From a virus: DNA of 64,000 bases. Positions 475-64,000 of this stretch are shown piece after piece. The position numbers were made by a program, and so were the translations under genes. The notes under the pieces were generated by a model. That model worked only from the letters and a program-made list of their open reading frames with translations, was not told the origin of the DNA and made no database searches. The stretch covers positions 1 through 64,000 of IMG/VR virus record IMGVR_UViG_3300027706_000269; one strand, written 5' to 3'. Position 1 is the first letter of the stretch; each line of letters starts with the position of its first letter.

Positions 475-854
475 GCGGCCTCCTCGAAGCGTCGCACGAT
501 CTCGCGCTGCGCCTCCCAGGCCACCGGCAGCGGATTGCGCTGGAACCAGATCAGGCTCATCCGGCGCGGCTGTCGCCCGGCCATCAGCAGCTCAACGATG
601 TCGGGCGCGAGCAGCGTCAGGCGCAGCAGTTCGTTGACCACCGAGTGGTGCAGCCCTTCGGCGCGCGCAATGGCCGAGCCGCTCGGCATGGCGCCGCTGT
701 CCAACAACCGCTGCCAGTGGAAGGCCCTTGCCATCCCTTCGATGAGCGTGCTGTCGTGCGTGTCCCGGTCCTCGGCCTTGTGCTGAACCAGCCGGCGCAC
801 GCCGCGCCGCCGCAGGGTCAGCGGCACAAAGGTTTCGCGAACTCCGTCTTTCAT
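471..854 (-). CDS. Recombinase-associated HTH protein, paralogue B (127 aa)
   Basis: Conserved small protein directly downstream of the recombinase. The start at 854 is chosen because it forms a 4-bp ATGA overlap with the recombinase stop and because the second copy (48,930-49,313) has the same start and length. It has the same layout as the neighbouring paralogue: ETFVPLTLRRRG near the N-terminus, HWQRLL near residue 50, then an HTH-like segment (SAIARAEGLHHSVVNELLRL) and TLLAPDIVE. Inferred to bind DNA with or for the recombinase; no function is established from sequence. Confidence 0.75.
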   Translation of the reverse strand: MKDGVRETFVPLTLRRRGVRRLVQHKAEDRDTHDSTLIEGMARAFHWQRLLDSGAMPSGSAIARAEGLHHSVVNELLRLTLLAPDIVELLMAGRQPRRMSLIWFQRNPLPVAWEAQREIVRRFEEAA

Positions 855-2230
855 GCTTCGACCTCCAGCAACTCGGCGCCGATGCTCCTGGGCGCGAACT
901 CGCCAATCAAAGCGTCCCAGCCCAGTTCGCGCCACTTCACCTTGATCCCCTGCATCTCGTCGGTGTGGACGAGGTCGATGCGCTCGATCATGAGGTTGGC
1001 AATGCGGTGCCGCTCGACCGGGAAGAGCTGATCCCACACGTCGTTCAGCCGCCCCATCGCCATCACGACGGCGGCTTCGTCCATGGGCGCGCCCTGGCGC
1101 TGGACCTGGCGCACGACGGCGGCGACGGATTCGGGGCTGGTGAGCACGGTCCGGATCTGGGCCACGACCGCCGCTTCGATCTCGCCGGCGGGCAGGCGCT
1201 CGTAGCTCTTGCCGGGTGCGCCGAACCGGCTCTCAGACTTGGAGACGTAGTACTGGTACTTGCGGCCGTTCTTGCGCGAGTACGTTGGGTACATGCGTTC
1301 GCCCGTCGGCGCGTACAGCAGCCCCCGCAGCAGCGCGTCGTTGCGCGAGCGGATCTTGGTGTCCACCGACCGCGCGTGGCTGTCGCGGGCCAGCACCGCA
1401 TGCACCTGATCCCACAGCTGGCGTTCGATGATCGGCTCGTGCTGCGCCGGGTACCACTGGCCGCGATTTGACAGTTCTCCGAGATAGATGCGGTTGCGCA
1501 GCACCTTGTGGATGTACTTCTTGTCGATGCGCGTGCCGGTACGCACGCGGCCGTCCTGGGTCGTCCATGCCTTGGTCGTGACGCCCTCGGCAGTCAACCG
1601 GGCGGCGATCTGCGTGGGTGATCCGATGGTCAGCATCTCCTCGAACATCCGCCGCACCACCGCCGCCTCGGCTGGGTTGACCACCAGTTGGCGGTTGACC
1701 ACGTCGTAGCCGATGGTGGGCACGCCGCCCATCCACATTCCCTTCTTCTTGGCGGCGGCGATCTTGTCGCGGATACGCTCGCCGGTGACCTCGCGCTCGA
1801 ACTGGGCGAAGGACAGCAGGATGTTCAGCGTCAGCCGCCCCATCGAGGTGGTGGTGTTGAACTGCTGCGTGACCGACACGAAGGACACGCCCTGGCGCTC
1901 GAACACCTCGACCATCTTGGAGAAGTCGGCCAGGCTGCGCGTGAGGCGGTCGATCTTGTAGACCACCACGATGTCGACCAACCCGCGCTCGATGTCGGCC
2001 AGCAGACGCTTGAGGGCCGGCCGCTCGGTGTTGCCGCCGGAGTAGCCGGGGTCGTCGTAGTCGTCGACGACCGGAATCCACCCCTCGGCGCGTTGGCTGG
2101 CGATGAAGGCATGGCCCGCCTCCTTCTGCGCGTCGATGGAGTTGAACTCCTGGTCGAGTCGTTCATCCGACGACACCCGGCAGTAGACCGCGCAGCGCTT
2201 GCGCGGCTTCGAGGATGCGATTTCCGCCAT
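851..2230 (-). CDS. Large serine recombinase (integrase), 459 aa
   Basis: Site-specific DNA recombinase expected to integrate and excise the prophage. The N-terminal resolvase/invertase catalytic domain begins with YCRVSSDE (nucleophilic serine about residue 20) and contains DDPGYSGGNTERPAL and YKIDRLTRS. A 'recombinase' domain follows (GYDVVNRQL through the KVLRNRIYLGE region). The segment where a zinc beta-ribbon is expected (LLYAPTGERMYPTYSRKNGR) has no cysteines, which is unusual for large serine recombinases. The start at 2,230 is chosen for the 1-bp TGATG overlap with the upstream DUF2924 gene. Highly similar to the copy at 49,310-50,689. Confidence 0.93.
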   Translation of the reverse strand: MAEIASSKPRKRCAVYCRVSSDERLDQEFNSIDAQKEAGHAFIASQRAEGWIPVVDDYDDPGYSGGNTERPALKRLLADIERGLVDIVVVYKIDRLTRSLADFSKMVEVFERQGVSFVSVTQQFNTTTSMGRLTLNILLSFAQFEREVTGERIRDKIAAAKKKGMWMGGVPTIGYDVVNRQLVVNPAEAAVVRRMFEEMLTIGSPTQIAARLTAEGVTTKAWTTQDGRVRTGTRIDKKYIHKVLRNRIYLGELSNRGQWYPAQHEPIIERQLWDQVHAVLARDSHARSVDTKIRSRNDALLRGLLYAPTGERMYPTYSRKNGRKYQYYVSKSESRFGAPGKSYERLPAGEIEAAVVAQIRTVLTSPESVAAVVRQVQRQGAPMDEAAVVMAMGRLNDVWDQLFPVERHRIANLMIERIDLVHTDEMQGIKVKWRELGWDALIGEFAPRSIGAELLEVEA

Positions 2231-2682
2231 CAGACACCTCCCTTCAGGCCGAAGAACAGCGGGCCGCTCCAATGCTGGCCGGTGATGTGCCGCGCCACGG
2301 CGGTCAGGCTCTTGAAGCGGCGGCCTTCGTATTCGAAGTGACCGTCGGCGTCGACCGTCACCCGATGCTCGCGCTCGCCCCATTCGCGCAGCAGCACAGT
2401 GCCGGGGGCGAAGTCGAACTTGCGCGCGCGGGCACGCAGTTTGATCTTGGAGTGCTTGGCGCCGATGGCCTCCAGGCGCTGGCGGGTTTGGGGGGGCAGG
2501 CCGCCGAAGGCTTCCTCCTGCAGCTTGTAGGCAAGGCGCGATTCAACAAAGGTGCGGTTCGGAAACTCCGGTCGGCGCTCGAAGTAGCGATCCCAGAGCG
2601 TCCAGAGCTCGGCCATCGGCAGGTGGCCCAGTTCGGCAATCCGTGCGGCGACGCTGGCGTGCTTGTCGTTCATGTCGTTCAT
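2230..2682 (-). CDS. DUF2924 domain protein (150 aa)
   Basis: DUF2924 family protein, commonly found next to phage serine recombinases; biochemical role unknown. The N-terminal helical part contains AELWTLWDRYFERRPEFPNR; the C-terminal part has the hallmark REWGEREHRVTVDADGHFEYEGR and FKSLTAVARHITG, which suggests a small DNA-associated fold. The start at 2,682 (ATG) has an AGGAG about 8 bases upstream; a GTG lies one codon earlier. The start overlaps the stop of the 63-aa upstream gene, and the stop overlaps the recombinase start, so the five-gene operon looks translationally coupled throughout. Confidence 0.88.
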   Translation of the reverse strand: MNDMNDKHASVAARIAELGHLPMAELWTLWDRYFERRPEFPNRTFVESRLAYKLQEEAFGGLPPQTRQRLEAIGAKHSKIKLRARARKFDFAPGTVLLREWGEREHRVTVDADGHFEYEGRRFKSLTAVARHITGQHWSGPLFFGLKGGV

Positions 2683-4143: not shown

Positions 4144-4686
4144 ATGCAGCAGGTCGTCGCTCCTCACGCCCGGGTCCGCGTTTTCGTCGACACCAATGTC
4201 ATCCTCGAAGCCTTCCGCGTTGGGTGCTGGTCATCACTGGCAACTACCTTTTCGATTGAAACCGTCGAGAAGTGCGTCGAGGAAGCCCTGACAGGGGACC
4301 CGACTGATCCGCGCCACGTAGCTGTCGATCGCGACGTTCTGGTCGCAGGTTTGTCGGCGCGCCACCCGGTCGACAAACGCACCATCGCCAGGTTCGGGCT
4401 TGCCCATCCGGCCAGCGCTGGACTCGACGCCGGGGAGCTTCACTTGCTGGCCTGGCTCCATGACCAAGGATTGATGGGGACAGTCAAGCTGCTGCTATCG
4501 ACGGCGGACAAGGCGGCGATCGTCGCCGCCGGTCGTCTCGACTGGCTCGATCTGGTGACGTCTCTGGAGCAATTGGCCCAGCAAGCCGGCGTCGGCCGAG
4601 TTCAGATCGACCAAATGGCTCGCCACTACCGCCAGCGGTGGCTCGATGAGATCAAGGTGAAGGTCCGTCTCGGGATCATCCCCTGA
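4144..4686 (+). CDS. PIN-domain protein, putative RNase effector (180 aa)
   Basis: PIN-fold nuclease candidate. Acidic residues in the expected order: D16 in VDTNVIL, D95 and E98 in LDAGELHLLAW, and D122 in STADKAA, which matches the metal site of PIN RNases. The C-terminal third (about 140-180) is a helical extension. Middle gene of a three-gene operon: regulator 12 bp upstream, large protein 28 bp downstream. This arrangement (HTH-peptidase plus PIN-like toxin) fits a toxin-antitoxin-like pair; the substrate cannot be told from sequence. Confidence 0.82.
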   Translation: MQQVVAPHARVRVFVDTNVILEAFRVGCWSSLATTFSIETVEKCVEEALTGDPTDPRHVAVDRDVLVAGLSARHPVDKRTIARFGLAHPASAGLDAGELHLLAWLHDQGLMGTVKLLLSTADKAAIVAAGRLDWLDLVTSLEQLAQQAGVGRVQIDQMARHYRQRWLDEIKVKVRLGIIP

Positions 4687-4714
4687 CAGGAAGGTTGAGC
4701 AACAAGAACGAACA

Positions 4715-6928
4715 ATGACCCAGGCGAAGAAGAACACTGCCTCGTTCCATCGGTTTGTTGAAACCGCATCCCTTGGTGCCATTCGGACGCTTTGCGACAG
4801 CGTCAGCGACCTGGCAGGTCAGCTGTGGGTTACGTCCGCGCTCGCGCAACTGACGCCTGAGGCCGATGCCCAGACGTGTGCCCAGGCTCGACGGGCGCTG
4901 TCCGACGGCTGCCGACATCTGACCACGGAATCCCTGTCGAGGCTTGAAGGCGATGCGCGACGGGTGATCGCATTGGCCGAAGGCAAAGGTCCCGCGGCAA
5001 TCAAAGTCGTCGAGCGCGACATCTACAAATTCGATGATCCGGAAGGCGGACTACGTGCCGGCTTTGATGCACAGACCGACGACCTTGGGAGATCGGTGTT
5101 CCTGCTGATTCGGGTGCCCCAGCTGTTCGAGGAGGCCGAGCGATTCCACTTCGCCGAGCACTATCGGAATTTCGGTCGCCTCTATGAAGCCTTCGAGGTC
5201 GACTGCGACCAACTGGCGCAATTCGAGTGGAACGAAGCCGCCAAGGCCGCGTTCGAGACCAAGATCAAGGAGCAGCTGCAGATCTCCGGTCCTTGCCTCA
5301 TTCAGCACTTCGAGGTCTCCCAGTCTGATGACGGTGCAGGTTCGCCTTCACTGCACATGTTCTTGATCCGGCATGCCGGAATGACCAGCAGCGTCCAGGA
5401 CACCTTGCCCGATCTCTCTCTACAGCCCATCCACTACAAGCCTCCGGTCGAAGCAACACTGCTATTCGAACCTGCCCAGAAGCGGATCGAGGTGTTCGCC
5501 GAGCAGGCAGCCGAGCGTCCGCTGATCGCCGCTGCGTTCGCGGAAGTCGCGACGGGATCAGATCTTTCAGGTAGGCCGATGTCGCTTCGCCAGTACAACC
5601 TGGAGCGCTTCTATCGGTCGCTTCATCTGTCGCAAGCCGAGGTGGAACATCTTGGTGTTTTGGACGTGCGAGTGGTCGAGGCCGAAGCGCGGCCGCAGAA
5701 CCTCAAGCGCCGTGTGGTGGTAAAGGTCGACAAGGACGACGACATCGATACCGCAGCGCGCGCCATGCTCGGCGACAACAACATCTTCAGCCGGGCAACG
5801 TTGATCAGCCGGGTCGTGATCAACCTGCGGTTCGAACGTAACGGTAAGGAGGTGAACCTGCCGATCACGCTGAGCGCGCCTAATCGTTGCAACCTAGCAA
5901 GCCGTCAGGACCCGCGCGACCGCGAGTTGGGCTATGCGGTCCTTGAGGCCTACGGCATCGTCAGATCGGTCGCGCCACTCGATGCCGCGAGCGAGGCCGG
6001 GCAGTTCAGCGCGATGCTGCGGTTGTATGAGTCGGATTGTGCGGAAGTCTCCCGCGCTGAACTGCACAACTGGGGCGCGGACGTTTCCGTGCTGCGGTCG
6101 GCGGGCTTCCTGGTTCCGAAGGCGCGGGCATCATTTGTGACCCGAGTTCGCGACGATGGGACGGTACTCCAGGCGCCAGTGCGTTCGATTGAAGGGCGGC
6201 TGGTCTTTGACGACCCGCAGACCGGACTCCTGGTTGCGGTTGATCCCAGCGAGCTGGAGCGATTCGAGGTCAAACGGGACTGGCTCACCGAGCGTGTCAT
6301 CAAGGGGTTGCGCGGGGCGATGCGCATGGGGCGCACGCCGCGGTCAACCGGTCCCGTCGTGAAGCTCGGTACGCTGGTCGACGGAAACGACGATGTTCCG
6401 GTGCACCTGGCTCGCTGCCTTGACCGAATGGATGTCATTGCCTCTGTAGACAGCAGTCTGCGCGGCGACGGTCAGTCGGGCTGGGGTGTGGTTCTGACAG
6501 CCACGGAGGTTTGTCCTGAGTTCCTCGGGGCGAACGTCATCGTGCAGTTGGCTGACGTCCTGATGGCGGACGAAGCTGGAATCACTGTCGACCAGACACG
6601 GCTGATGCAGATCCTGCGCGATGGTCGCCAGCGAGCCATCGCCGCAGCCGTTCCTGATCTGCGCATCACCTGCGATATCGCGGGCAAGGAAACGGCCACG
6701 CTCATCATCCCTGGCAAGCTGCCGTTCTCTCTCGTCGGGGGCAAACAAGTTCTGGTGGTCGAGCGCTTGATGCAAGCGCATCGCGCAGGCAATCCGGTTG
6801 TCACCGGTGGCGCGCTGTTCGAAGGCATGAGCAGCAAGTCTCCTGCCCAGCTCTTTACTGGCGATACCTGGAAGCAGTACATCGGGCATCCACCCGACAA
6901 GTCCCGGGGGTGGATGCTGCTGCTCTGA
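4715..6928 (+). CDS. Unrecognised 737-aa protein of the PIN operon
   Basis: No known domain recognised. A soluble protein with no clear membrane segment or signal peptide and no Walker A or visible nuclease motif. It is homologous along most of its length to the 751-aa protein at 51,428-53,683. Shared landmarks are a P-x-RC-x-LA segment followed by D-x-R...LEA-x-G (about residues 390-415), a DWL-E motif near 525, GVVLT-x-T...F-x-G-x-NV near 595-610, and a strong C-terminal signature: PGK-x-P, RL-x-x-A-x-x-AG-x-P, SPA-x-LFTG, then R-x-W close to the end. It is the third gene of an operon with a regulator and a PIN protein in both elements. Inferred to be the partner, sensor or effector scaffold of the PIN protein. 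Confidence 0.8.
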   Translation: MTQAKKNTASFHRFVETASLGAIRTLCDSVSDLAGQLWVTSALAQLTPEADAQTCAQARRALSDGCRHLTTESLSRLEGDARRVIALAEGKGPAAIKVVERDIYKFDDPEGGLRAGFDAQTDDLGRSVFLLIRVPQLFEEAERFHFAEHYRNFGRLYEAFEVDCDQLAQFEWNEAAKAAFETKIKEQLQISGPCLIQHFEVSQSDDGAGSPSLHMFLIRHAGMTSSVQDTLPDLSLQPIHYKPPVEATLLFEPAQKRIEVFAEQAAERPLIAAAFAEVATGSDLSGRPMSLRQYNLERFYRSLHLSQAEVEHLGVLDVRVVEAEARPQNLKRRVVVKVDKDDDIDTAARAMLGDNNIFSRATLISRVVINLRFERNGKEVNLPITLSAPNRCNLASRQDPRDRELGYAVLEAYGIVRSVAPLDAASEAGQFSAMLRLYESDCAEVSRAELHNWGADVSVLRSAGFLVPKARASFVTRVRDDGTVLQAPVRSIEGRLVFDDPQTGLLVAVDPSELERFEVKRDWLTERVIKGLRGAMRMGRTPRSTGPVVKLGTLVDGNDDVPVHLARCLDRMDVIASVDSSLRGDGQSGWGVVLTATEVCPEFLGANVIVQLADVLMADEAGITVDQTRLMQILRDGRQRAIAAAVPDLRITCDIAGKETATLIIPGKLPFSLVGGKQVLVVERLMQAHRAGNPVVTGGALFEGMSSKSPAQLFTGDTWKQYIGHPPDKSRGWMLLL

Positions 6929-14440: not shown

Positions 14441-14650
14441 ATGAAGATCCCGACTCCGCCCTACCGCTGTCCACTTGGCAGGCTCCAACCCGAGGCGACC
14501 GACCTCGAGTTGCTCAAGCAACGCGGCTGGCGCGATCAGCACATTCTGGTCATCAACGAAACCGACGAGCGGTTGGACTTCGTCGAGCGCGAGTTCGTGC
14601 GCCGCATCGGCGAACGTCTCTACGGCGCAGGAGGGCCGCGCCGTGGCTGA
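14441..14650 (+). CDS. Small conserved phage protein (69 aa)
   Basis: Unknown function. Shape conserved with the 69-aa gene at 62,369-62,578: PxYRCPLGRLQPE at the N-terminus, RGWR-x-Q in the middle and ERELIRRIGERLYG-type C-terminus. Positioned between the resolvase and a DUF6362-like gene, overlapping the latter by 8 bp, so probably translationally coupled. No metal-binding pair (only one cysteine) and no HTH evident. Confidence 0.7.
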   Translation: MKIPTPPYRCPLGRLQPEATDLELLKQRGWRDQHILVINETDERLDFVEREFVRRIGERLYGAGGPRRG

Positions 14651-15059
14651 GTGGACCATCGAGGACGTGGCAGCTCGCTTCGAAGAGGCTGCCACCACCG
14701 GAAGACGCCTACCCCCGGTGCGGGTGCAGGGCTACTTCAACACCTGGCCGGTCTTCGTGCGACAGGAGTGGGAGGCGTTCGCCGCCGACGAGAAGGTCTA
14801 CCGGCCTTTCCCACCCAGCCCTGAGGCTGTCGATCGCATGCTGGAGACGATGCGCTGGGTGCAGTGGCTCGAGGTCGAGCAGCGCCACCTGGTGTGGATG
14901 CGGGCCAAGCGCTACGGCTGGCGAGACATCACGATCCGATTCGCGTGCGATAGGACGACGGCATGGCGGCGCTGGCAGAAGGCGCTGCAGATGGTGGCTG
15001 ACCGGCTCAATGGCGAGGGGGCACGGCTGCCGTCCAAAGCCGTGGGCAACGTCGGGTAA
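14643..15059 (+). CDS. DUF6362-like phage protein with C-terminal HTH (138 aa)
   Basis: Last gene of the early operon, next to cos. The N-terminal part contains RLPPVRVQGYFNTWP; the C-terminal part has a sigma-region-4-like HTH (YGWRDITIRFACDRTTAWRRWQKAL). Phage proteins of this sort often act as late regulators or small DNA-binding proteins. The start taken is GTG at 14,643, equivalent to the ATG of the homologue at 62,571. That the same gene precedes cos in both elements suggests a role in late transcription or packaging; this is inference. Confidence 0.72.
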   Translation: MAEWTIEDVAARFEEAATTGRRLPPVRVQGYFNTWPVFVRQEWEAFAADEKVYRPFPPSPEAVDRMLETMRWVQWLEVEQRHLVWMRAKRYGWRDITIRFACDRTTAWRRWQKALQMVADRLNGEGARLPSKAVGNVG

Positions 15060-15157
15060 CGACGATCGCCTGTGTCCTCGTGTTGCTGTCCTTGTCCATT
15101 TTCGAGATCGACCACGCTGCAACAAACCGGGGCTTCGTCGCTACTATTTCAGCTATG

Positions 15158-15300
15158 TTCTGGACAGCAGTGGCGGTTGAGGCGGCGGCCCCAGGCGAAA
15201 GGGGTCCTTCCTCCCGAAGATGCCATGCGGGGGGCGCGAGCGCGGCATTCGCCTAGCGTCCGACTGCAAACCCAGGTTTGCAGGGGTTTGCAGGTTTGCA
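15158..15300. other. cos: cos packaging site (lambda-like cosQ-cosN-cosB), element 1
   Basis: GGGTCCT at 15,202-15,208 equals lambda cosQ. About 18 bases later the GC block GCGGGGGGCGCGAGCGCGGC (15,227-15,246) occupies the cosN position. To its right, TGCAAACC/GGTTTGCA form a perfect inverted repeat (15,265-15,282), followed by two more GGTTTGCA copies (15,285-15,300) that could be cosB-like sites for the small terminase. The whole block recurs at 63,820-63,959 with the 25 bases around cosN identical. Lambda-type Nu1/GpA terminase genes support cos packaging. The exact nick positions are not determinable here. Confidence 0.78.
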
Positions 15301-15344
15301 CCCCGACCCATCCAGCCCCGCCAGTGATCGCATCACTTGCCCGA

Positions 15345-15372
15345 CGCCTCCCTCGCGGAGGCGTTTCTATTT
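15345..15372 (+). terminator. Rho-independent terminator right of cos
   Basis: CGCCTCC / GGAGGCG stem (15,345-15,351 and 15,357-15,363) with a 5-base loop, followed by TTTCTATTT. Would stop early-operon transcription before the methyltransferase genes. Confidence 0.7.
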
Positions 15373-15440
15373 CCTCGGCCCGCGACCGGTTGGCTCCTTG
15401 CCGATCCGGGCCGTTTTCATTTGAGGTTCCGATCCTGAAG

Positions 15441-16832
15441 ATGCTCAACGTCGACTACCGCAAGGTCGAGACGCTGATTCCGTACGCACGTAACCCGCGC
15501 ACGCATTCCGACGCGCAGGTGGCCAAGATCGCCGCGAGCATCGTCGAGTACGGCTGGACCAACCCGGTGCTGGTCGATGGCGACAACGGCGTCATCGCCG
15601 GGCATGGACGGCTCGCCGCCGCCCGAAAGCTCGGCCTCGAAGATGTGCCGGTGATCGAGCTGGGCCACTTGACGCCGGCGCAGAAGCGCGCCTACGTCAT
15701 CTCCGACAACCGCCTGGCCCTCGACGCTGGGTGGGATGAGGAACTGCTGGCGCTGGAGTTGGCTGAGCTGTCCGAGGCCGGCTACGACCTGGCGCTGACC
15801 GGATTCGACGAGTCCGAGATCGACGCGCTGCTCGCGCCCGAGCCGGCCGACGCCGAGTCGGACGCAGAATCGGAGGATGCGGCCGACGACGTGCCTGAGG
15901 CACCGGCCGTCCCGGTCTCCCGCACCGGTGACATCTGGGTACTCGGCAAGCACCGTCTCATCTGCGGTGATGCCACCGACGCGCAGGTGGTCGCCACGCT
16001 GATGCAAGGCGAGGCGGCCGCGTTGTGCTTCACCTCGCCGCCCTATGGCAACCAGCGCGATTACACCAGCGGCGGCATCGCCGACTGGGATGGTCTGATG
16101 CGCGGCGTGTTTGCCAGCCTGCCGATGGCCACAAGCGGCCAGGTGCTGGTCAACTTGGGTCTGATCCACCGCGACAACGAGGTCGTCCCGTACTGGGACG
16201 GCTGGCTCGCGTGGATGCGGACGCAGGGCTGGCGGCGCTTCGCCTGGTACGTGTGGGACCAGGGGCCCGGCATGCCGGGCGACTGGGCGGGCCGCTTCGC
16301 CCCGAGCTTTGAGTTCGTCTTCCACTTCAACCGAGCGAGCCGCAAGCCCAACAAGATCGTGCCCTGCAAGCACGCCGGCCAGGAGTCGCACCTGCGCGCC
16401 GATGGATCGTCGACCGCCATGCGCAGCAAGGATGGCGAGGTCGGAGGCTGGACCCATGCTGGCCAGCCGACGCAGGACACACGCATCCCCGACTCAGTGA
16501 TTCGCGTGATGCGCCACAAGGGCAAGATCGGCCAGGGGATCGACCACCCGGCCGTGTTCCCAGTGGCGCTGCCCGAGTTCGTCATCGAGGCGTACACGGA
16601 CCCCGGCGATCTCGTGTTCGAGCCGTTTGGTGGCAGCGGCACGACGATGCTGGCCGCCGAGCGCACCGGTCGGATCTGCCGCACCGTCGAGATCGCGCCC
16701 GAGTACGTGGACGTCGCCGTGCGCCGCTTCCGGCAAAACCATCCGGAGGTGCCGGTGACCCTGCTCGCGACCGGCCAGTCCTTCGAGGAGGTGGCGGCCC
16801 AGCGGCTGGCGCCGGAGGAGGTCGCGGCATGA
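15441..16832 (+). CDS. ParB-domain / DNA methyltransferase fusion 1 (463 aa)
   Basis: Phage DNA methyltransferase with an N-terminal ParB/Srx-like domain (NPRTHSDAQVAKIAASI, GVIAGHGRLAAARKLG, about residues 1-130), an acidic linker (about 130-160) and a C-terminal MTase: catalytic TSPPYGNQ and SAM-binding EPFGGSGTT near the end, the beta-class order. Probably modifies phage DNA to evade host restriction; the target base (N6-A or N4-C) is uncertain. The start at 15,441 is the first ATG in frame with the ParB domain; its SD is weak, and a start a few codons upstream is possible. Overlaps the paralogous next gene by 4 bp. Confidence 0.85.
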   Translation: MLNVDYRKVETLIPYARNPRTHSDAQVAKIAASIVEYGWTNPVLVDGDNGVIAGHGRLAAARKLGLEDVPVIELGHLTPAQKRAYVISDNRLALDAGWDEELLALELAELSEAGYDLALTGFDESEIDALLAPEPADAESDAESEDAADDVPEAPAVPVSRTGDIWVLGKHRLICGDATDAQVVATLMQGEAAALCFTSPPYGNQRDYTSGGIADWDGLMRGVFASLPMATSGQVLVNLGLIHRDNEVVPYWDGWLAWMRTQGWRRFAWYVWDQGPGMPGDWAGRFAPSFEFVFHFNRASRKPNKIVPCKHAGQESHLRADGSSTAMRSKDGEVGGWTHAGQPTQDTRIPDSVIRVMRHKGKIGQGIDHPAVFPVALPEFVIEAYTDPGDLVFEPFGGSGTTMLAAERTGRICRTVEIAPEYVDVAVRRFRQNHPEVPVTLLATGQSFEEVAAQRLAPEEVAA

Positions 16833-18082
16833 CGGCGTCCTGGCTGGCCGACAAGATCGAGCAGTGGCCGACGGCCAAGTTGCTGCCGTATGCGCGCAAT
16901 GCGCGGACGCACTCGGACGCGCAGGTCGCCCAGATCGCCGCGTCCATCGCCGAGTTCGGCTTCACGAACCCCATCCTCGCCGGAAGCGACGGGGTGATCG
17001 TCGCCGGGCACGGGCGTCTCGCGGCTGCGCAGAAGCTCGGGTTGGAGGTGGTCCCGGTCGTGGTCCTGGATCACCTGAGCCCAACGCAGCGCCGGGCGCT
17101 GGTGATCGCCGACAACCGCATCGCCGAGAACGCGGGCTGGGACGAGGCGATGTTGCGCATCGAACTGGAGGCCCTGCAGAGCGAAGGCTTTGACCTGGAC
17201 ATCACGGGCTTCGACGCTGATGCCTTGGCCGAGCTGATGGCCGGCGACGAGCCCGACGCCGAGGGCCAGACCGATGACGACGCGGTGCCCGAGGTCACCG
17301 AAACAGCAGTCTCGCGCCCGGGCGACATCTGGTTGCTCGGACACCACCGCCTGCTCTGCGGCGATGCGACGGTCGCCAACAGCTACGAACACCTGCTGGC
17401 CGGCGAGTCAGTGGACATGGTCTTCACCGATCCTCCCTACAACGTCAACTACGCCAACAGCGCAAAGGACAAGATGCGCGGCAAGGATCGCGCGATCCTG
17501 AACGACAACCTGGGTGACGGCTTCTACGACTTCCTGCTCGCCGCGCTGACGCCGACCATCGCCCAGTGCCGTGGCGCGATCTACGTGGCGATGTCCTCCA
17601 GCGAGCTTGACGTGCTGCAGGCCGCGTTCCGCGCCGCGGGCGGCCACTGGTCGACCTTCATCATCTGGGCGAAGAACACCTTTACGCTGGGTCGCGCGGA
17701 CTACCAGCGCCAGTACGAACCGATCCTGTACGGCTGGCCGGAGGGGGCGCAGCGTCACTGGTGCGGCGACCGTGACCAGGGCGACGTGTGGAGCATCAAG
17801 AAGCCGCAGAAGAACGACCTGCACCCGACCATGAAGCCGGTCGAGCTGGTCGAGCGCGCGATTCGCAATTCGAGCCGCCCGGGCAACGTGGTCCTGGACC
17901 CGTTTGGTGGCTCGGGCACGACACTCATCGCCGCCGAGAAGTCAGGGCGGCAGGCGCGGCTGATCGAGCTCGACCCCAAGTACGTCGACGTGATCGTGCG
18001 CCGTTGGCAGGACTGGACAGGAAAGCAAGCCGCCCGTGAGGGGGACGGTTTGTTGTTCCCTTCGGTGACGGCTCTGGGATAA
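16829..18082 (+). CDS. ParB-domain / DNA methyltransferase fusion 2 (417 aa)
   Basis: Tandem paralogue of the preceding gene. The ParB-like domain is clearly related (NARTHSDAQVAQIAASI, GVIVAGHGRLAAAQKLG). The MTase domain is divergent: catalytic motif TDPPYNVNY and SAM motif DPFGGSGTT, with a loop KKPQKNDLHPTMKP typical of beta-class N6-adenine/N4-cytosine enzymes. The two genes therefore probably methylate different sites. Translationally coupled to gene 1 (4-bp overlap). The C-terminus ends just before a convergent small gene at 18,106. Confidence 0.87.
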   Translation: MTASWLADKIEQWPTAKLLPYARNARTHSDAQVAQIAASIAEFGFTNPILAGSDGVIVAGHGRLAAAQKLGLEVVPVVVLDHLSPTQRRALVIADNRIAENAGWDEAMLRIELEALQSEGFDLDITGFDADALAELMAGDEPDAEGQTDDDAVPEVTETAVSRPGDIWLLGHHRLLCGDATVANSYEHLLAGESVDMVFTDPPYNVNYANSAKDKMRGKDRAILNDNLGDGFYDFLLAALTPTIAQCRGAIYVAMSSSELDVLQAAFRAAGGHWSTFIIWAKNTFTLGRADYQRQYEPILYGWPEGAQRHWCGDRDQGDVWSIKKPQKNDLHPTMKPVELVERAIRNSSRPGNVVLDPFGGSGTTLIAAEKSGRQARLIELDPKYVDVIVRRWQDWTGKQAAREGDGLLFPSVTALG

Positions 18083-18406: not shown

Positions 18407-18775
18407 TCAGGCGGAAATTGCTTCGTCGGTGATCGCACAGTGAATCACGAAGCCCGTCAGGTACGGCAGGCCGCGCGGGATGCCGTACTGCTTGCTGGTC
18501 TGACGGCCGATCGTCCAGCCCATCCATTGCCGGGTGGCGGCGTGGATTGCTTCCTCCAGCGTCTGACCGCGGTACAGACCGCTGTGCACCTCGTCCGCGA
18601 AGTGGCGGCCGTGGCGGCTGTCGAGGAAGATCCGCACCGATTCGAGGGACTCTCCGGTGGCATCCGAGACGGTGGTCATCGCCAGGCGCCAGGCGGCCTC
18701 GGCCTGCTCGTTCATCGTGCCCCAGAAGCCCCAGGCGTCGTTCTGGGTGCCGGGGATGGTCTGCTGGATCGTCAT
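18407..18775 (-). CDS. Conserved hypothetical protein (122 aa)
   Basis: Not recognised. The sequence has helical stretches (NEQAEAAWRLAMTTVSDATG) and a segment RHGRHFADEVHSG followed by LEEAIHAATRQWMGW, common in plasmid and phage accessory proteins. The C-terminus is hydrophobic (GLPYLTGFVIHCAI), not long enough to call a membrane anchor. Its leader carries copy 2 of the 31-bp repeat (18,812-18,842). The SD is weak. Member of the inverted four-gene block. Confidence 0.6.
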   Translation of the reverse strand: MTIQQTIPGTQNDAWGFWGTMNEQAEAAWRLAMTTVSDATGESLESVRIFLDSRHGRHFADEVHSGLYRGQTLEEAIHAATRQWMGWTIGRQTSKQYGIPRGLPYLTGFVIHCAITDEAISA

Positions 18776-18811
18776 GGTGGTACCCGTTCTGTGGATCGTT
18801 GCGATGCGTCT

Positions 18812-18842
18812 ATGAACGCGCTGTTCGATCAGGAAGCCAAGC
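18812..18842 (-). repeat. 31-bp leader repeat, copy 2
   Basis: ATGAACGCGCTG at 18,812 and GAAGCCAAGC at 18,833 (plus-strand reading). It lies 37-67 bases upstream of the 122-aa gene start, in the non-coding gap before the DUF3489 gene end. Confidence 0.75.
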
Positions 18843-18872
18843 TCTTCTCGGCCTCCTTCTCGATCTTTCTGC

Positions 18873-19403
18873 TCAGACGACCCGGTAGATCCGTTCGCCG
18901 CCCTGCGGCTTCTCGGAGACGATGGCGAGACCCAGCTTCTTCTTGAAGGCGCCAGCGAAGGTGCCGCGTACCGTGTGCGGCTGCCAGCCGGTGGCCTCGC
19001 AGATCTGGCGGACCGTCGCGCCCTCAGGGCGCTTGAGCATGCGGATCACGTCGGCCTGCTTGCTGTTCTCGCGGGTACGCGGCTTCTCAGTCGGGCGCTC
19101 CTGCGCCCAGGTTGCCTCGGCGGCAGTCACGGCAGCCTCGATCTCAGGGTCCGCCTCAATCGGTGCGGCGGCAGGCGCGGCCGGTTCGGGGCGCTGGCGT
19201 CCCAGCGCGTCGTAACCCTCGGCCGCCACGAAGCAGTCGGTGCCGTCGGTCGTGATCAGCGCGCGGCTGAAGAGACCGTCGAACACCTTCTTGCGGGCGC
19301 CGCCTTTGATGTTGTCGGGGAACCAGACGATCTTGCCGTCGGTGTGCTCCAGGGCGTAGGCCAGGATGGCGTGCTGGGCGGGGGTCAGGGTGATAGTGGT
19401 CAT
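18873..19403 (-). CDS. DUF3489 domain protein (176 aa)
   Basis: DUF3489 family, common on proteobacterial mobile elements. An N-terminal winged-helix-like half (LTPAQHAILAYALEHTDGKI, GGARKKVFDGLFSRALI) leads to an Ala/Pro/Glu-rich linker (about residues 70-110). The C-terminal DUF3489 HTH follows: SKQADVIRMLKRPEGATVRQI and GWQPHTVRGTFAGAFKKKLG. Likely DNA-binding; target unknown. ATG at 19,403 has GAAGGAG upstream. The leader contains the best version of the 31-bp repeat with a perfect hairpin (19,461-19,487). Confidence 0.82.
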   Translation of the reverse strand: MTTITLTPAQHAILAYALEHTDGKIVWFPDNIKGGARKKVFDGLFSRALITTDGTDCFVAAEGYDALGRQRPEPAAPAAAPIEADPEIEAAVTAAEATWAQERPTEKPRTRENSKQADVIRMLKRPEGATVRQICEATGWQPHTVRGTFAGAFKKKLGLAIVSEKPQGGERIYRVV

Positions 19404-19882: not shown

Positions 19883-20410
19883 ATGGGAATCTCGATTCGG
19901 GCGTACGCCCGCCACCGAGGCGTGACCGACACGGCCGTGCACAAGGCCATCCGTACCGGACGCATTACGCCGGAGGAAGACGGCACCATCGACGTCGACA
20001 GGGCAGATCGCGAGTGGGCGCGCAACTCCGAGGCGCCCAAGGCAGGGACCCGCGCAAGAGCCGTTAAGGCCGCTGTGCCGGAGTCCGCGGCTGACGCGCC
20101 TGCCGGGCTGCCCGCGGGCGGTGCGTCGCTCCTGCAGGCGCGCACCGTGAACGAGGTGGTCAAGGCGCAAACGAACAAGGTGCGGCTCGCGCGCCTCAAG
20201 GGCGAACTGGTCGACCGCAACCAGGCCATCGCGCATGTGTTCAAGCTGGCCCGATCCGAGCGCGACGCGTGGTTGAACTGGCCGGCCCGCATCTCGGCGC
20301 AGATGGCCGCACGGCTCGACGTCGATCCTCACGCAATGCACATCGCGCTGGAGGCATCCGTGCGCGAGCACCTGCAGGAGCTGGGCGAACTTCGTCCTCG
20401 GGTGGACTGA
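19883..20410 (+). CDS. Terminase small subunit, Nu1-like (175 aa)
   Basis: DNA-recognition subunit of the packaging motor. The N-terminal winged HTH (IRAYARHRGVTDTAVHKAIRTGRIT) would bind cosB-type repeats. An Ala-rich linker (about 50-85) leads to the helical C-terminal half (ARTVNEVVKAQTNKVRLARLKGELVDRN), which in lambda Nu1 contacts the large subunit. Stop and the terminase large-subunit start overlap (TGATG). The GGTTTGCA repeats at cos are the probable target. Confidence 0.85.
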   Translation: MGISIRAYARHRGVTDTAVHKAIRTGRITPEEDGTIDVDRADREWARNSEAPKAGTRARAVKAAVPESAADAPAGLPAGGASLLQARTVNEVVKAQTNKVRLARLKGELVDRNQAIAHVFKLARSERDAWLNWPARISAQMAARLDVDPHAMHIALEASVREHLQELGELRPRVD

Positions 20411-22380
20411 TGCTGGACGTCGACTACGAGGGCGCCACCGAGATCGAGCGCGCCTGGCGCGAGGGACTGACACCGGACCCGTTGCTGACGGTGTCCGAGT
20501 GGTCGGACCGCCACCGGATGCTCTCCAGCAAGGCCTCCGCCGAGCCGGGGCGCTGGCGCACCAGCCGCACGCCGTACCTCAAGGCGATCATGGATTGCCT
20601 GTCGCCGACCTCGCCGGTCGAGCGGGTGGTGTTCATGAAGGCTGCCCAACTCGGCGCCACCGAGATGGGCTCGAACTGGATCGGCTACGTGATCCACCAC
20701 GCACCCGGGCCGATGATGGCGGTGTGGCCGACGGTGGAAATGGCCAAGCGCAACTCGAAGCAGCGCATCGACCCGCTGATCGAGGAGTCGTCCGCCTTGG
20801 CCGAACTGATCGCCCCGGCGCGCTCGCGCGACTCCGGCAACACGATCCTGGCCAAGGAGTTTCGGGGCGGCGTGCTGGTGATGACCGGTGCCAACAGCGC
20901 GGTTGGCCTGCGCTCGATGCCGGTTCGCTATCTGTTCCTCGACGAGGTGGATGGCTATCCCCTCGACGTCGAGGGCGAAGGCGACGCGATCTCGCTGGCC
21001 GAGGCGCGCACACGCACCTTCGCGCGCCGCAAGATCTTCATCGTCTCGACGCCGACGATTTCGGGCGCGAGCGCCATCGAGCGCGAGTACGAGGCGAGCG
21101 ATCAGCGCAGGTACTTCGTGCCGTGTCCGCACTGCTCGCACCGCCAGTGGTTGAGGTTCGAGCAACTTCGATGGGAGCGCGGCGAGCCCGAGTCGGCGGC
21201 CTACATCTGCGAGTCGTGCGACGCGCCGATTGTTGAGCACCACAAGACCTGGATGCTGGAGCACGGCGAGTGGCGCGCGATGGCCCCGGAGAACGGCTCC
21301 AAGACGGCAGGCTTTCACCTGTCCTCGCTGTACAGCCCGGTGGGCTGGCGCAGCTGGCGGGACATCGCCGCGGCCTGGGAGGCGGCGGTCAGCAAGGAGT
21401 CCGGGTCGGCCGCGGCGATCAAGACCTTCAAGAACACCGAACTCGGCGAGACCTGGGTCGAGGAAGGTGAAGCGCCTGACTGGCAACGACTGGTCGAGCG
21501 GCGTGAGGACTACCCGCTGGGCCGTGTGCCCGAGGGTGGGCTGCTGCTGGTGGGTGGCGCCGACGTGCAGAAGGATCGCATTGAGGCGTCGATCTGGGCG
21601 TTCGGGCGTGGTAAGGCCTCGTGGCTGGTGGAACACCGTGTGCTCATGGGTGACACCGCGCGAGACGCCGTGTGGAAACGCTTGGCGGAGCTGGTGGCGG
21701 AGCGTTGGACACACGCGTCGGGCGCCGCGATGCCGCTGGCCCGCTTCGCGCTCGACACGGGCTTTGCGACACAGGAGGCCTACGCCTTCGTTCGCGCCAG
21801 CCGTGACCCGCGCGTGATGCCTGTCAAGGGCGTTCCGCGCGGGGCCGCACTGATTGGCACGCCGACCGCGGTGGACGTCTCGCTCGCCGGCAAGAAGCTG
21901 CGCCGGGGCATCAAGGTCTACAGCGTGGCGGTCGGCATCGCCAAGCTGGAGCTCTACAACAACCTGCGCAAGAGCGCGGATGTGGGTGAGGACGGCCTGA
22001 GCGTGATCTACCCGGCCGGATTCGTTCACCTGCCGAAGATCGATGCGGAGTTCATCCAGCAGCTCTGTGCCGAGCAACTGATCACGCGCCGCGACCGCAA
22101 CGGCTTCCCGATTCGGGAGTGGCAGAAGGTGCGGGAGCGCAACGAGGCGCTGGACTGCTACGTGTACGCCCGGGCCGCCGCGAGCGCAGCCGGGCTGGAT
22201 CGCTTCGAGGAGCGCCACTGGCGCGAGCTCGAACGACAACTTGGGATGGACCGGCCACCGGATGAGCCGCCACCGATTCAGACATTCGACGCAGATGAGG
22301 CCACCCACAGCGGTGGCCTCGCTGCTTCTGGAGCCCGCATCACCGGCCGGCGCGTCATCAAGAGCCGCTGGATCGGTTGA
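20410..22380 (+). CDS. Terminase large subunit, GpA family (656 aa)
   Basis: ATP-driven DNA translocase and cos endonuclease. The ATPase domain has a P-loop-like KAAQLGATE at residues 77-85 and Walker B YLFLDEVD at about 174-181. A zinc-finger-like insertion pairs CPHC with CESC (about residues 238-278). The C-terminal nuclease domain starts with GGADVQKDRIEASIWAFGRGK. Length is typical for lambda GpA (about 640 aa). The GpA type with an Nu1-like partner implies cos rather than headful packaging. Confidence 0.95.
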   Translation: MLDVDYEGATEIERAWREGLTPDPLLTVSEWSDRHRMLSSKASAEPGRWRTSRTPYLKAIMDCLSPTSPVERVVFMKAAQLGATEMGSNWIGYVIHHAPGPMMAVWPTVEMAKRNSKQRIDPLIEESSALAELIAPARSRDSGNTILAKEFRGGVLVMTGANSAVGLRSMPVRYLFLDEVDGYPLDVEGEGDAISLAEARTRTFARRKIFIVSTPTISGASAIEREYEASDQRRYFVPCPHCSHRQWLRFEQLRWERGEPESAAYICESCDAPIVEHHKTWMLEHGEWRAMAPENGSKTAGFHLSSLYSPVGWRSWRDIAAAWEAAVSKESGSAAAIKTFKNTELGETWVEEGEAPDWQRLVERREDYPLGRVPEGGLLLVGGADVQKDRIEASIWAFGRGKASWLVEHRVLMGDTARDAVWKRLAELVAERWTHASGAAMPLARFALDTGFATQEAYAFVRASRDPRVMPVKGVPRGAALIGTPTAVDVSLAGKKLRRGIKVYSVAVGIAKLELYNNLRKSADVGEDGLSVIYPAGFVHLPKIDAEFIQQLCAEQLITRRDRNGFPIREWQKVRERNEALDCYVYARAAASAAGLDRFEERHWRELERQLGMDRPPDEPPPIQTFDADEATHSGGLAASGARITGRRVIKSRWIG

Positions 22381-48933: not shown

Positions 48934-49313
48934 GCTTTCTCCTCGAAGCGCCGCACGATCTCGCGCTGGGCCGCCCAGTCCACCGGCAGCGGGTGGCGCT
49001 GGAACCAGATCAGGCTCATCCGGCGTGGCTGCCGCCCGGCCATCAGCATCTCGACGATGTCGGGCGCGAGCAGCGTCAGGCGCAGCAGCTCGTTGACCAC
49101 CGAGTGGTGCAGCCCTTCGGCACGCGCGATGGCCGAGCCGCTGGGCATCGCGCCGCTGTCTAGCAGCCGTTGCCAGTGGAAGGCCCGTGCCATCCCTTCG
49201 ATGAGCGTGCTGTCGTGCGCGTCCCGGTCCTCGGCCTGGTGCTGAACCAGCCGGCGCACGCCGCGCCGCCGCAGGGTCAGCGGCACGAAGGTCTCGAGCG
49301 TCCCGTCCTTCAT
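48930..49313 (-). CDS. Recombinase-associated HTH protein, paralogue B, element 2 (127 aa)
   Basis: Counterpart of 471-854, same length and start context (4-bp overlap with the recombinase stop). Only scattered substitutions, mostly outside the HWQRLL and RLTLLAP segments, so the gene is under selection in both elements. Role inferred, as for the other copy, from its coupling to the recombinase. Confidence 0.75.
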   Translation of the reverse strand: MKDGTLETFVPLTLRRRGVRRLVQHQAEDRDAHDSTLIEGMARAFHWQRLLDSGAMPSGSAIARAEGLHHSVVNELLRLTLLAPDIVEMLMAGRQPRRMSLIWFQRHPLPVDWAAQREIVRRFEEKA

Positions 49314-50689
49314 GCCTCGACCTCCAGCAGCTCGGCGCCGATGCTCCTGGGCGCGAACTCGCCGATCAAGGCGTCCCAGCCCAGTTCGCGCCACTTCACC
49401 CGGATGCCCTGCATCTCGTCGGTGTGGACGAGATCGATGCGCTCGATCATCAGGTTGGCGATGCGGTGCTGCTCAACCGGGAAGAGCTGATCCCACACGT
49501 CGTTGAGGCGCCCCATCGCCATCACGACCGTGGCCTCGTCGATCGGTGCGCCCTGGCGTTGGATGTGGCGCACGACGGCGGCGATGGATTCGGGGCTGGT
49601 CAGCACGGTGCGGATCTGGGCCACGACCGCCGCCTCGATCTCGCGGGCGGGCAGGCGCTCGTAGCTCTTGCCCGGCGCGCCGAAGCGGCTCTCGGACTTG
49701 GAGACGTAGTACTGGTACTTGCGGCCGTTCTTGCGCGAGTACGTGGGGTACATGCGTTCGCCCGTCGGCGCGTACAGCAGCCCGCGCAGCAGCGCATCGT
49801 TGCGCGAGCGGATCTTGGTGTCCACCGACCGCGCGTGGCTGTCGCGGGCCAGCACCGCGTGAACCTGGTTCCACAGCTGGCGTTCGATGATCGGCTCGTG
49901 CACGCCGGGGTACCACTGGCCCCGGTTCGACAACTCCCCGAGGTATATGCGGTTGCGCAGCACCTTGTGGATGTACTTCTTGTCGATGCGCGTGCCGGTC
50001 CGCACCCGCCCGTCCTGCGTCGTCCACGCCTTGGTCGTGATGCCCTCGGCGGTCAGGCGCGCTGCGATCTGCGTGGGTGAGCCAATGGTCAACATCTCCT
50101 CGAAGATGCGGCGCACCACCGCCGCCTCGGCGGGGTTGACCACCAACTGGCGATTGACCACGTCGTAGCCGATGGTGGGCACGCCGCCCATCCACAGCCC
50201 CTTCTTCTTGGCCGCGGCGATCTTGTCGCGGATGCGCTCGCCCGTGACCTCGCGCTCGAACTGGGCGAAGGACAGCAGGATGTTGAGCGTGAGCCGCCCC
50301 ATCGAGGTCGTGGTGTTGAACTGCTGCGTGACCGAGACGAAGGACACGCCGTGGCGCTCGAACACCTCGACCATCTTGGAGAAGTCGGCGAGGCTCCTCG
50401 TCAGGCGGTCGATCTTGTAGACCACCACGATGTCGATCAGCCCGCGCTGGATATCGGCCATCAGGCGCTTCAAGGCCGGGCGCTCGGTGTTGCCGCCGGA
50501 GTAGCCGGGGTCGTCGTAGTCGTCGGCCACCGGAATCCATCCCTCGGCGCGCTGGCTGGCGATGAAGGCGTGCCCGGCTTCCTTTTGCGCATCGATGGAG
50601 TTGAACTCCTGGTCGAGCCGCTCGTCCGACGACACCCGGCAGTAGACCGCACAGCGCTTGCGCGCCTTGGTGGAGGCGATTTCCGTCAT
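49310..50689 (-). CDS. Large serine recombinase, element 2 (459 aa)
   Basis: Same length and domain order as the gene at 851-2,230, with only scattered differences (e.g. MTEIASTKA versus MAEIASSKP at the N-terminus, and VADDYDD versus VVDDYDD). The catalytic YCRVSSDE and the cysteine-free beta-ribbon region (LLYAPTGERMYPTYSRKNG) are identical. Two such similar integrases probably recognise the same att site, which would explain the tandem arrangement. Confidence 0.93.
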   Translation of the reverse strand: MTEIASTKARKRCAVYCRVSSDERLDQEFNSIDAQKEAGHAFIASQRAEGWIPVADDYDDPGYSGGNTERPALKRLMADIQRGLIDIVVVYKIDRLTRSLADFSKMVEVFERHGVSFVSVTQQFNTTTSMGRLTLNILLSFAQFEREVTGERIRDKIAAAKKKGLWMGGVPTIGYDVVNRQLVVNPAEAAVVRRIFEEMLTIGSPTQIAARLTAEGITTKAWTTQDGRVRTGTRIDKKYIHKVLRNRIYLGELSNRGQWYPGVHEPIIERQLWNQVHAVLARDSHARSVDTKIRSRNDALLRGLLYAPTGERMYPTYSRKNGRKYQYYVSKSESRFGAPGKSYERLPAREIEAAVVAQIRTVLTSPESIAAVVRHIQRQGAPIDEATVVMAMGRLNDVWDQLFPVEQHRIANLMIERIDLVHTDEMQGIRVKWRELGWDALIGEFAPRSIGAELLEVEA

Positions 50690-51132
50690 CAGGCGCCTCC
50701 CTTCAGGCCGAAGAACAGCGGGCCGCTCCAATGCTGGCCGGTGATGTGCCGCGCCACGGCGGTCAGGCTCTTGAAGCGGCGGCCTTCGTATTCGAAGTGA
50801 CCATCGGCGTCAACCGTCACCCGGTGCTCGCGCTCGCCCCATTCGCGTAGCAGCACGGTGCCCGGTGCGAAGTCGAACTTGCGCGGGCGCGCGCGCAGTT
50901 TGATCTTGGAGTGCTTCGCGCCGATGGCCTCAAGGCGCTGGCGCGTTTCGGGTGCGAGTCCGCCGAAGGCTTCTTCCTGCAGCTTGTAGGCGATACGGGA
51001 TTCGACATGGGTGCGGTTCGGAAACTCCGGGCGCCGCTCGAAGTACCGATCCCAGAGCACCCAGAGTTCGGCCATCGGCAGGTGACTCAGCTCGGCGATC
51101 CGCGCCGCGATGGAAGCTTGTTTCTCGTTCAT
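50689..51132 (-). CDS. DUF2924 domain protein, element 2 (147 aa)
   Basis: Counterpart of 2,230-2,682, three residues shorter at the N-terminus. Core motifs LWVLWDRYFERRPEFPNR, REWGEREHRVTVDADGHFEYEGR and LTAVARHITGQHWSGPLFFGLKGG are retained. ATG 51,132 has AGGAG about 8 bases upstream and overlaps the 63-aa gene stop. The open frame continues upstream, but only the downstream start matches the first copy. Confidence 0.87.
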   Translation of the reverse strand: MNEKQASIAARIAELSHLPMAELWVLWDRYFERRPEFPNRTHVESRIAYKLQEEAFGGLAPETRQRLEAIGAKHSKIKLRARPRKFDFAPGTVLLREWGEREHRVTVDADGHFEYEGRRFKSLTAVARHITGQHWSGPLFFGLKGGA

Positions 51133-54811: not shown

Positions 54812-54973
54812 TAACCGAAAAGACATTGTTCTAACCATACAAATCAAAGACTTAAGGCGCATGCCTGGCTCGCCACCGGTCGGGCCGCGCCCCGTGATCG
54901 CCTAAAAAGCACTCGCCCAAGCCCAAAGCGCCGGGCAATTCAATGAGGGCTCCCAAACAGAAGGAGCCCCGCC

Positions 54974-63680: not shown

Positions 63681-63819
63681 TGGGGTAGCTCTTCCAAACC
63701 CATGCGCAACGTTGATGAACGCAGGGCGCGCTGACAGACAGTTTCGGACTGGATGCAAATCCGGGGTCGTTCAGGGGTGCAACAAAGCAGGCCGATCAGG
63801 GGTAGTATCTCGGCTAACT
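63681..63819. other. Gap between antitoxin gene and cos
   Basis: About 140 bp with no ORF of note and no clear terminator. Matches the equivalent stretch of element 1 (about 15,090-15,157) only loosely (caacaaa...tagta). Confidence 0.5.
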
Positions 63820-63959
63820 TCTGGACAGCGGTGACGGTCGAGGAAGCCGCCCGGCCATTCACGGGTCCTTCCTGGCGACCCAGCCATGCGGGGGGCGCGA
63901 GCGCGGCGCTTCGATAGCGTCAGGGTGCAAACCGAGGTTTGCAGGGTTTGCGGTTTGCA
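63820..63959. other. cos: cos packaging site, element 2
   Basis: cosQ-like GGGTCCT at 63,863-63,869; the cosN-like GC block within 63,883-63,907 has 25 bases identical to element 1. TGCAAACC/GGTTTGCA inverted repeat at 63,926-63,943, followed by GGTTTGC (63,945) and GGTTTGCA (63,952-63,959). Conserved spacing; flanking sequence has diverged, so the conserved bases are probably functional. Confidence 0.78.
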
Positions 63960-64000
63960 GCCCTCCAGCCCGAGACCTTCTCCCCGACACCCCCAGCCCG

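Follow-up and report, generated by a model that had tools for sequence, protein, structure and literature searches.

The best described packaging sites of this kind are those of phages lambda and 21, in which cosQ, cosN and a cosB of the order R3-I1-R2-R1 lie in series and are served by the gpNu1-gpA terminase. In lambda, GGGTCCT stands 30 bases before the cut and nu1 adjoins cos. In lambda, 21 and N15, the discrimination of self DNA by the terminase small subunit (TerS) rests on a few genetic contacts, and passages of PMC4669245 and PMC9026076 on lambda and 21 assign specificity to the TerS helix and the R sequence. The N15 cosB has no IHF site and uses one R site near cosN (R3 at bp 48-59) together with a remote inverted one. 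Enterobacterial PICI, according to passages of PMC9026076, are satellite islands that carry copies of cosQ and cosN; those with Rpp-TerS are without the R repeats of the helper and use Rpp. Finally, the Rhodobacter cluster RcC phage RcDormio has, according to Table 3 of PMC8601537, a 5' overhang of 11 bases derived from sequencing reads.

The site described here lies in a 64-kb window, which is the whole stretch of DNA analysed (64,000 nucleotides) and comes from a virus record of 91,816 bases. Two related prophages follow one another in this record, both pointing the same way, with cos copies at 15202-15300 in prophage 1 and at 63863-63959 in prophage 2 (Table 1). Judged from its sequence, the first of these is very probably the DNA site where the phage cuts and begins to pack its genome. 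Its plan is directly visible and is shared with lambda and 21 in the cosQ 7-mer, the GC-rich cosN, the repeated TerS sites of which one is inverted, a GpA-type terminase large subunit (TerL) and a TerS with a putative winged helix-turn-helix (wHTH). The window, on the other hand, has 8-bp units in a tight 36-bp array that spans bp 36-71 as counted from the predicted end, with no IHF consensus nearby, an 11-base instead of a 12-base end (by homology), a TerS gene 4.6 kb away and many further specificities among its relatives. It resembles N15 in the missing IHF site and in a TerS site close to cosN, and differs from it in having a tight array of four units. What is new here is a compact-array variant of the lambda-type cos with a remote TerS gene, whose repeat falls within a readable family of TerS-DNA specificities. 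Taken as a whole, we consider it highly likely that this is the cos of a temperate phage built on the lambda plan, with a TerS wHTH acting on four GGTTTGCA units, a GpA-type TerL nicking cosN and specificity set by the two helix residues x1 and x2 defined below.

Two features of a lambda-type cos are present: GGGTCCT shortly upstream of cosN at a fixed spacing, and repeated putative R units with one inverted by cosN, a reading based on sequence and on covariation with TerS. Two others, neither of them strictly defining, are absent, namely a TerS gene beside cos, as in the lambda layout, and an IHF site between R3 and R2, which is absent in N15 as well. The GC block between cosQ and TAGCGTC reads ATGCG-GGGGGCGCGAG-CGCG. 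No IHF site is found in the array, the sole match in the window to the IHF consensus being at 54842, and the position of the array relative to the predicted end leaves no room for one. An earlier note on this DNA had placed cos at 15158-15300, with one inverted and two direct sites of new sequence. The site is indeed there, starting at 15202 with cosQ, and the inverted unit stands; the direct copies in prophage 1 are three rather than two; and the repeat does appear new, as a literature search for GGTTTGCA gave only chance-like matches among the matches listed. In prophage 2 the array consists of an inverted unit and three direct ones, two of them exact and the other (63945-63952) with one mismatch. 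Exact GGTTTGCA occurs seven times in the 64 kb, against 1.34 expected and with none of 100 shuffles reaching seven, and all seven fall within the two cos copies.

Table 1. Features of the window around the two cos copies, with positions counted from its first base.
Feature	Position	Strand	Remarks
Serine recombinase (integrase-like), prophage 1	851..2383	-	PF00239, PF07508
DUF6362 / phrog_6836 gene	14475..15059	+	usual left neighbour of this cos
cosQ, prophage 1	15202..15211	+	GGGTCCT extended to GGGTCCTTCC; 63 bp before palindrome in 110 of 119 stretches
Predicted cosN cohesive end, prophage 1	15230..15240	+	GGGGGCGCGAG; from alignment with RcDormio ends, uncertain by a base or two
TAGCGTC element between cosN and cosB	15254..15260 and 63915-63921	+	consensus sequence from 155 modules
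cosB R unit 1, inverted GGTTTGCA	15265..15272	-	
cosB R unit 2, direct GGTTTGCA	15275..15282	+	palindrome TGCAAACC-CA-GGTTTGCA with unit 1
cosB R unit 3, direct GGTTTGCA	15285..15292	+	
cosB R unit 4, direct GGTTTGCA	15293..15300	+	
ParB-N / N6-N4 DNA methylase 1	15441..16832	+	start by similarity, within ORF 15072-16832
ParB-N / N6-N4 DNA methylase 2	16829..18082	+	
Inverted block	18407..19403	-	phrog_8020 protein 18407-18775 and DUF3489 protein 18873-19403
Terminase small subunit (TerS)	19883..20410	+	phrog_57; modelled recognition helix residues 16-24, x1=D16, x2=T17, x3=H20
Terminase large subunit (TerL)	20410..22380	+	GpA ATPase PF05876 E 2.5e-102; GpA nuclease PF20454 E 6.5e-96
Serine recombinase (integrase-like), prophage 2	49310..50731	-	~48.5 kb past prophage 1 recombinase
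cosQ, prophage 2	63863..63872	+	
Predicted cosN cohesive end, prophage 2	63891..63901	+	same 11 bases as prophage 1
cosB array, prophage 2	63926..63959	.	inverted 63926-63933; direct 63936-63943; near-copy GGTTTGCG 63945-63952; direct 63952-63959

Between the two prophages, the DNA of the cos regions can be aligned by blastn only over the intergenic block 15118-15304 / 63778-63963, at 77% identity, with the right flank of copy 2 ended by the end of the window. The flanks had earlier been said to differ; the flanking genes are nevertheless related, with protein identities of 71% for DUF6362, 67% for the first methylase, 77% for TerS and 78% for TerL. The two cos copies are 48.66 kb apart, and packaging from the first to the second would yield a hybrid genome of about one phage length. 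An N-6 DNA methylase gene (PF02384, 46140-47756, minus strand) lies near the join of the two prophages.

The conservation of the module can be observed directly. When IMG/VR was scanned for the palindrome by itself (TGCAAACCNNGGTTTGCA, cosQ being absent from the query), at least 119 stretches came up, and in 110 of the 119 listed GGGTCCT lies exactly 63 bp upstream of the palindrome, with one more at 64 bp; the other eight comprise two variants (L025, L114), two that are ended by the contig start with part of the GC block visible, and four that look like chance palindromes (L019, L069, L100, L109). Genomes scanned with a pattern that included cosQ, its gap allowed to vary by two bases either way, yielded 114 stretches, 111 of them at 63 bp, with titles mostly of Beta- and Gammaproteobacteria and a few MAGs labelled otherwise; strains of Tepidicella xavieri, Caldimonas and Thermomonas hydrothermalis are among the carriers. 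The 155 distinct modules hardly vary at the A at -65 or at many positions around cosN and TAGCGTC, and 123 of them have three direct units and one inverted. TAGCGTC is perhaps a TerL or spacing element; it is kept even in phages with other repeats, namely RcDormio (as TAGCGT) and AcaML1. In the phage collection, blastn of the cos region with 461 bases gave no match, a search with 94 bases at E up to 10 gave only 10 short chance-like matches, and no isolate with this module was found there by blastn. ZRG1, PBb001 and Haddon have neither GGGTCCT nor the palindrome, nor any cos above the null by matrix, and VarioGold was set aside as a comparison, being unrelated, with 3' ends and an HNH. In two loci (L614, L662) a cosQ-cosN match is followed by CACTTCATCATCATGG and no GTNNNCA array, which represents either another cosB type or another element.

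Where the DNA is cut can be predicted from RcDormio, whose TerL is 55% identical to that of the window and which shares with it the cosN core, TAGCGT and the order ParB - inverted genes - TerS - TerL, and departs from it in its GTTTCCA direct repeats and in a TerS helix reading VSHTAVGKAI. Its record begins GGGGGCGGAAGCGCG and finishes with AGGTTCTTCCGGACCCCTACGCTATGCG, and the end junction CTATGCG/GGGGGCGGAAG aligns to the cosN of the window, a homology to a read end that is plainly visible. Carried over by this alignment, the top-strand nick would fall after 15229, and 15230-15240 would be the 11-base 5' overhang. GGGTCCT then stands 28 bases before the predicted cut, compared with 30 in lambda, so that the nick could be off by one or two bases; the dyad symmetry of cosN, judged by eye, is weak. 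AcaML1 matches the same plan, with GGGTCCTCC, a GC block, TAGCGTCAG and then GTTTCCA units. Palindromes lie near contig starts among the listed rows of the palindrome scan, and none of those contig ends falls on the predicted cut. Were this a headful (pac) phage, TerS would bind the array and cutting would leave no fixed ends; we hold this to be very improbable, given the conserved GC-rich block at fixed spacing with cosQ, the GpA-type nuclease and the fixed 11-base overhangs of the relative RcDormio. The lambda cosQ-N-B plan put forward in the earlier note is supported by the exact cosQ spacing, by the homologous end in RcDormio and by the covariation of the array with the TerS helix described below.

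As had been noticed earlier, about 4.6 kb with two methylases and an inverted block separate cos from TerS: from the array end at 15300 to the TerS start at 19883 is 4.58 kb. This distance had been called unusual, which is true against lambda and not within this phage group. In 228 oriented loci searched with tblastn, DUF6362 is upstream on the same strand in 163 and methylase 1 downstream in 159; TerS is downstream on the same strand in 48 of the 228, at 2.0-6.7 kb with a median of 4.27 kb, many loci being too short to reach it. The remote-TerS layout is, on the strength of these 48 matches, the rule in this group. In AcaML1 and L672, TerS lies within about 170 bp after cos. The annotated gpNu1 of AcaML1 (L126, 10019-10480 against 4262-4795) was rejected as its TerS, as the extracted translation is not TerS-like; a hypothetical protein right after cos bears the TerS helix VSHTAVAKAI. 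Further GGTTTCCA units lie inside this helix-bearing gene.

TerL of the window, with its GpA ATPase and GpA nuclease domains, is a GpA-type terminase. TerS has no Pfam match. In its model, helices at residues 5-12 and 16-24 are followed by a wing-like stretch and then a helix at 38-50. Foldseek gave no match to this model at E < 0.001. The closest folds to residues ~1-52 are domains of packaging proteins (7lxs, 7lw0, 7lwr) at a modest Z of 6.5-6.8, with 7lxs at 6.8, and lambda gpNu1 (1j9i, rmsd 7.7) and 6hlk follow at Z 4.7, mixed with MerR/Xis-like rows.

The specificity of this family can be read by writing the unit as GTN4N5N6CA and the TerS helix as V[ST]x1x2AVx3KA, with x1 the first residue (16) of the second helix in the TerS model. 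Loci were gathered by TerL or TerS similarity and not by repeat, and repeat-selected loci were then added; cos was located by a matrix without the repeats, with a threshold higher than any score among 200 shuffled loci. Of the 131 distinct cos-TerS pairs so obtained, 123 were kept (32 repeat-selected, 91 TerL- or TerS-anchored). Eight were dropped: four with too few repeat copies, one ambiguous (L460, DT..R, with GTTCGCA/GTGCGCA units rather than GTTTGCA, and N6 still fitting) and three by the helix pattern, namely two false frames and L455, which has a real EN..R helix and a repeat, GTTGCGCA, that departs from the seven-base unit. The pairs fall into helix classes as follows: DT..H with triplet TTG (58 pairs), DT..R with TTG (4), DA or DS..R with TCG (17), DG, EA or EG..R with ACG (6), EK..R with CCG (2), EN or ES..R with GCG (6), HV or HP with TAC (20), HT..G/R with TTC (2), HT..A with TGC (2), HS..R with TCC (1), KS..M with GGA (2), and LS or AS..Q with GGT (3). 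From this tally, x1 fixes N6 in 123 of 123 pairs, N6 being G for D (80) and E (13), C for H (25), A for K (2), and T for L (2) and A (1). The mutual information is 1.00 of 1.00 bits for x1 and N6, and 2.34 of 2.37 bits for x1x2 and the triplet; x1 is the most informative for N6 of 48 N-terminal columns, and x2 is the best single column for N4 and for N5. As a predictor, x2 is imperfect, since HT..A is matched to TGC in two rows, and to TTC in AcaML1 when that site is read by eye.

Several loci lie outside these counts and were read by eye. The weight matrix missed AcaML1 and RcDormio, the cos of the latter being split across the record ends. The first six-frame pattern missed the TerS of L279, of L281 and of an alphaproteobacterial-looking group: L279 (DT..H) and L281 (DT..R) have GTTTGCA units and each also one GTTCGCA, and a GLSRGA[IV]QKA group, with x1 = R, has GGAATCCA / GGAAGCCA, that is, N6 = C. 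In a separate repeat-blind scan of 119 stretches, 105 loci were considered (27 earlier and 78 new, with 14 earlier loci left out), of which four were incomplete; the 101 typed cos regions carry TAC (51), TTG (32), TCG (14), ACG (1), TGC (1) or other units (2), so that the window belongs to one class among several.

This covariation is observed, and it can be explained without any contact between the residues and the bases if cos and TerS travel as one cassette and the matching residues merely hitchhike. The two are ~2-7 kb apart in most loci, and few independent switches can be resolved on the tree of TerS C-terminal parts, as such linkage would have it; we nevertheless regard linkage alone as improbable. 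First of all, among 511 comparisons in which the TerS C-terminal parts share at least 85% identity, the repeat differs 124 times, each time together with x1x2; both are the same in 377, the repeat is never different with x1x2 the same, and in 10 the repeat is the same with x1x2 different. In the bands below 85%, four comparisons have a different repeat and the same x1x2. Second, chemically alike residues go with the same base in different classes (D and E with G). Third, the top column of 48 for N6 is the first residue of the modelled recognition helix. Finally, the polarity of the helix agrees with lambda and Cro (see below). When repeats were permuted within C-terminal clusters (60, 75 and 85%), none of 1000 permutations at each level reached the observed x1x2-triplet information; N6 by itself lacks discriminating power in this test within the 85% clusters. 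At 90%, 118 rows collapse to 56 class-by-cluster combinations. A tree-based independent-pairs test on starred branches agrees in three of three (p 0.25), and is under-powered with only three usable pairs, so that independent switching is backed by many contrasts and not by a strong phylogenetic test.

The rule was also applied to a held-out set of cos sites, located through cosQ and cosN alone. These gave 92 cos matches: 18 identical to training, 55 without TerS in reach, one presumed duplicate and 18 new pairs, some of them on contigs whose cos was known earlier without its TerS, so that the pairs are new and the cos not always. The rule gave the correct N6 in 18 of 18, and the correct triplet in all 17 for which it made a prediction, the cases covering mainly two classes. 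No published code of TerS helix against cosB unit was found in the literature searched, which yielded lambda/21/N15/PICI work and general reviews.

Returning to the reading in which TerS contacts its repeats, the following sequence of events is proposed. TerS, made from the gene 4.6 kb away, would bind the four GGTTTGCA units through its winged helix-turn-helix; the inverted pair may suit a symmetric DNA-binding TerS dimer directly, presumably independently of the IHF-induced bend used by lambda. Bound TerS would position the GpA-type TerL over cosN, staggered nicks would leave 11-base 5' cohesive ends, and packaging would enter at the cosB-bearing end and halt at the cosQ-cosN of the next cos. 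Specificity would reside in the first residues of the recognition helix, with x1 reading N6 and x2 reading N4/N5, in which case TerS would prefer GGTTTGCA to GGTTACCA or GGTTCGCA. According to PMC9026076, the lambda TerS helix has its C-terminal end directed towards the 5' end of R3, and PMC5222340 has Gln27 and Ser28 of Cro contacting base pairs 2 and 4 of the half-site. A profile aligns the TerS helix with that of Cro, so that x1=Gln27, x2=Ser28 and K=Lys32, in a weak match (E 0.035). Lambda Cro on its operator is a regulator and not a packaging protein, and the register of half-site to R unit is our inference: if the GGT of an R unit is matched to the GG conserved in the half-site, bp 2 would be N6 and bp 4 would be N4. 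By this analogy, the likely polarity of the window's TerS helix on its unit agrees with lambda TerS and with Cro. The pairings also make chemical sense, an acidic x1 being paired with G, which faces cytosine, and His with C, which faces guanine.

We therefore think it probable, with less assurance than for the site itself, that the TerS proteins of a large phage group read cosB units by a general code of two to three residues (x1 for N6, x2 for N4/N5, with Cro-like geometry), with at least 10 natural specificities swapped on closely similar TerS backgrounds. If so, packaging compatibility could be read from sequence alone, including that of the helper of a capsid-less island with a borrowed cos array; such a code would predict which prophages cross-package and which satellites use which helper, and would help to place cos ends in many uncultured proteobacterial phages. 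Since matched pairs of TerS and site are plentiful in nature, and only a few residues vary for each base that varies, the specificity question is testable with natural parts.

The same cos is found in loci that look like satellites. Among the 65 GGTTTGCA loci that have 3.5 kb or more of sequence after them, seven show no match to the phage module genes. Six loci (L013, L158, L195, L219, L242 and L243) carry an 87-100% identical Toprim/AAA_25 (Rep-like) protein that ends 270-286 bp before cosQ, and these are candidate cos-stealing phage satellites carrying the same cos; unlike the PICI islands with Rpp-TerS, they bear the phage-type GGTTTGCA array. The 23.8-kb record of L013, which may be a fragment, encodes a tyrosine integrase, and nothing in it matches the window's TerL. 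These loci bear on one more reading of the array, as a centromere-like or operator site of the adjoining ParB-domain methylases with cosN nearby by chance. Two such genes directly follow the array, and iterated inverted sites are typical of ParB-type proteins; we give this reading very little credence, however, as the array lies at a constant distance from cosQ and cosN, varies with the TerS helix, is retained with cos in the six satellite-like loci without matches to these methylases, and in AcaML1 belongs to a cos directly followed by the TerS gene and not by a methylase. The genes after cos in L242, L243 and L013 are of the type I restriction-modification, OLD/Gabija-like, Fic and DUF3800 kinds, and the satellite-like elements have this defence-like cargo downstream, with no packaging genes nearby. 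A GGTTTGCA-type cos with Toprim/AAA_25 is seen in L190 and L223 too, with more distant forms in L169, L177 and L227.
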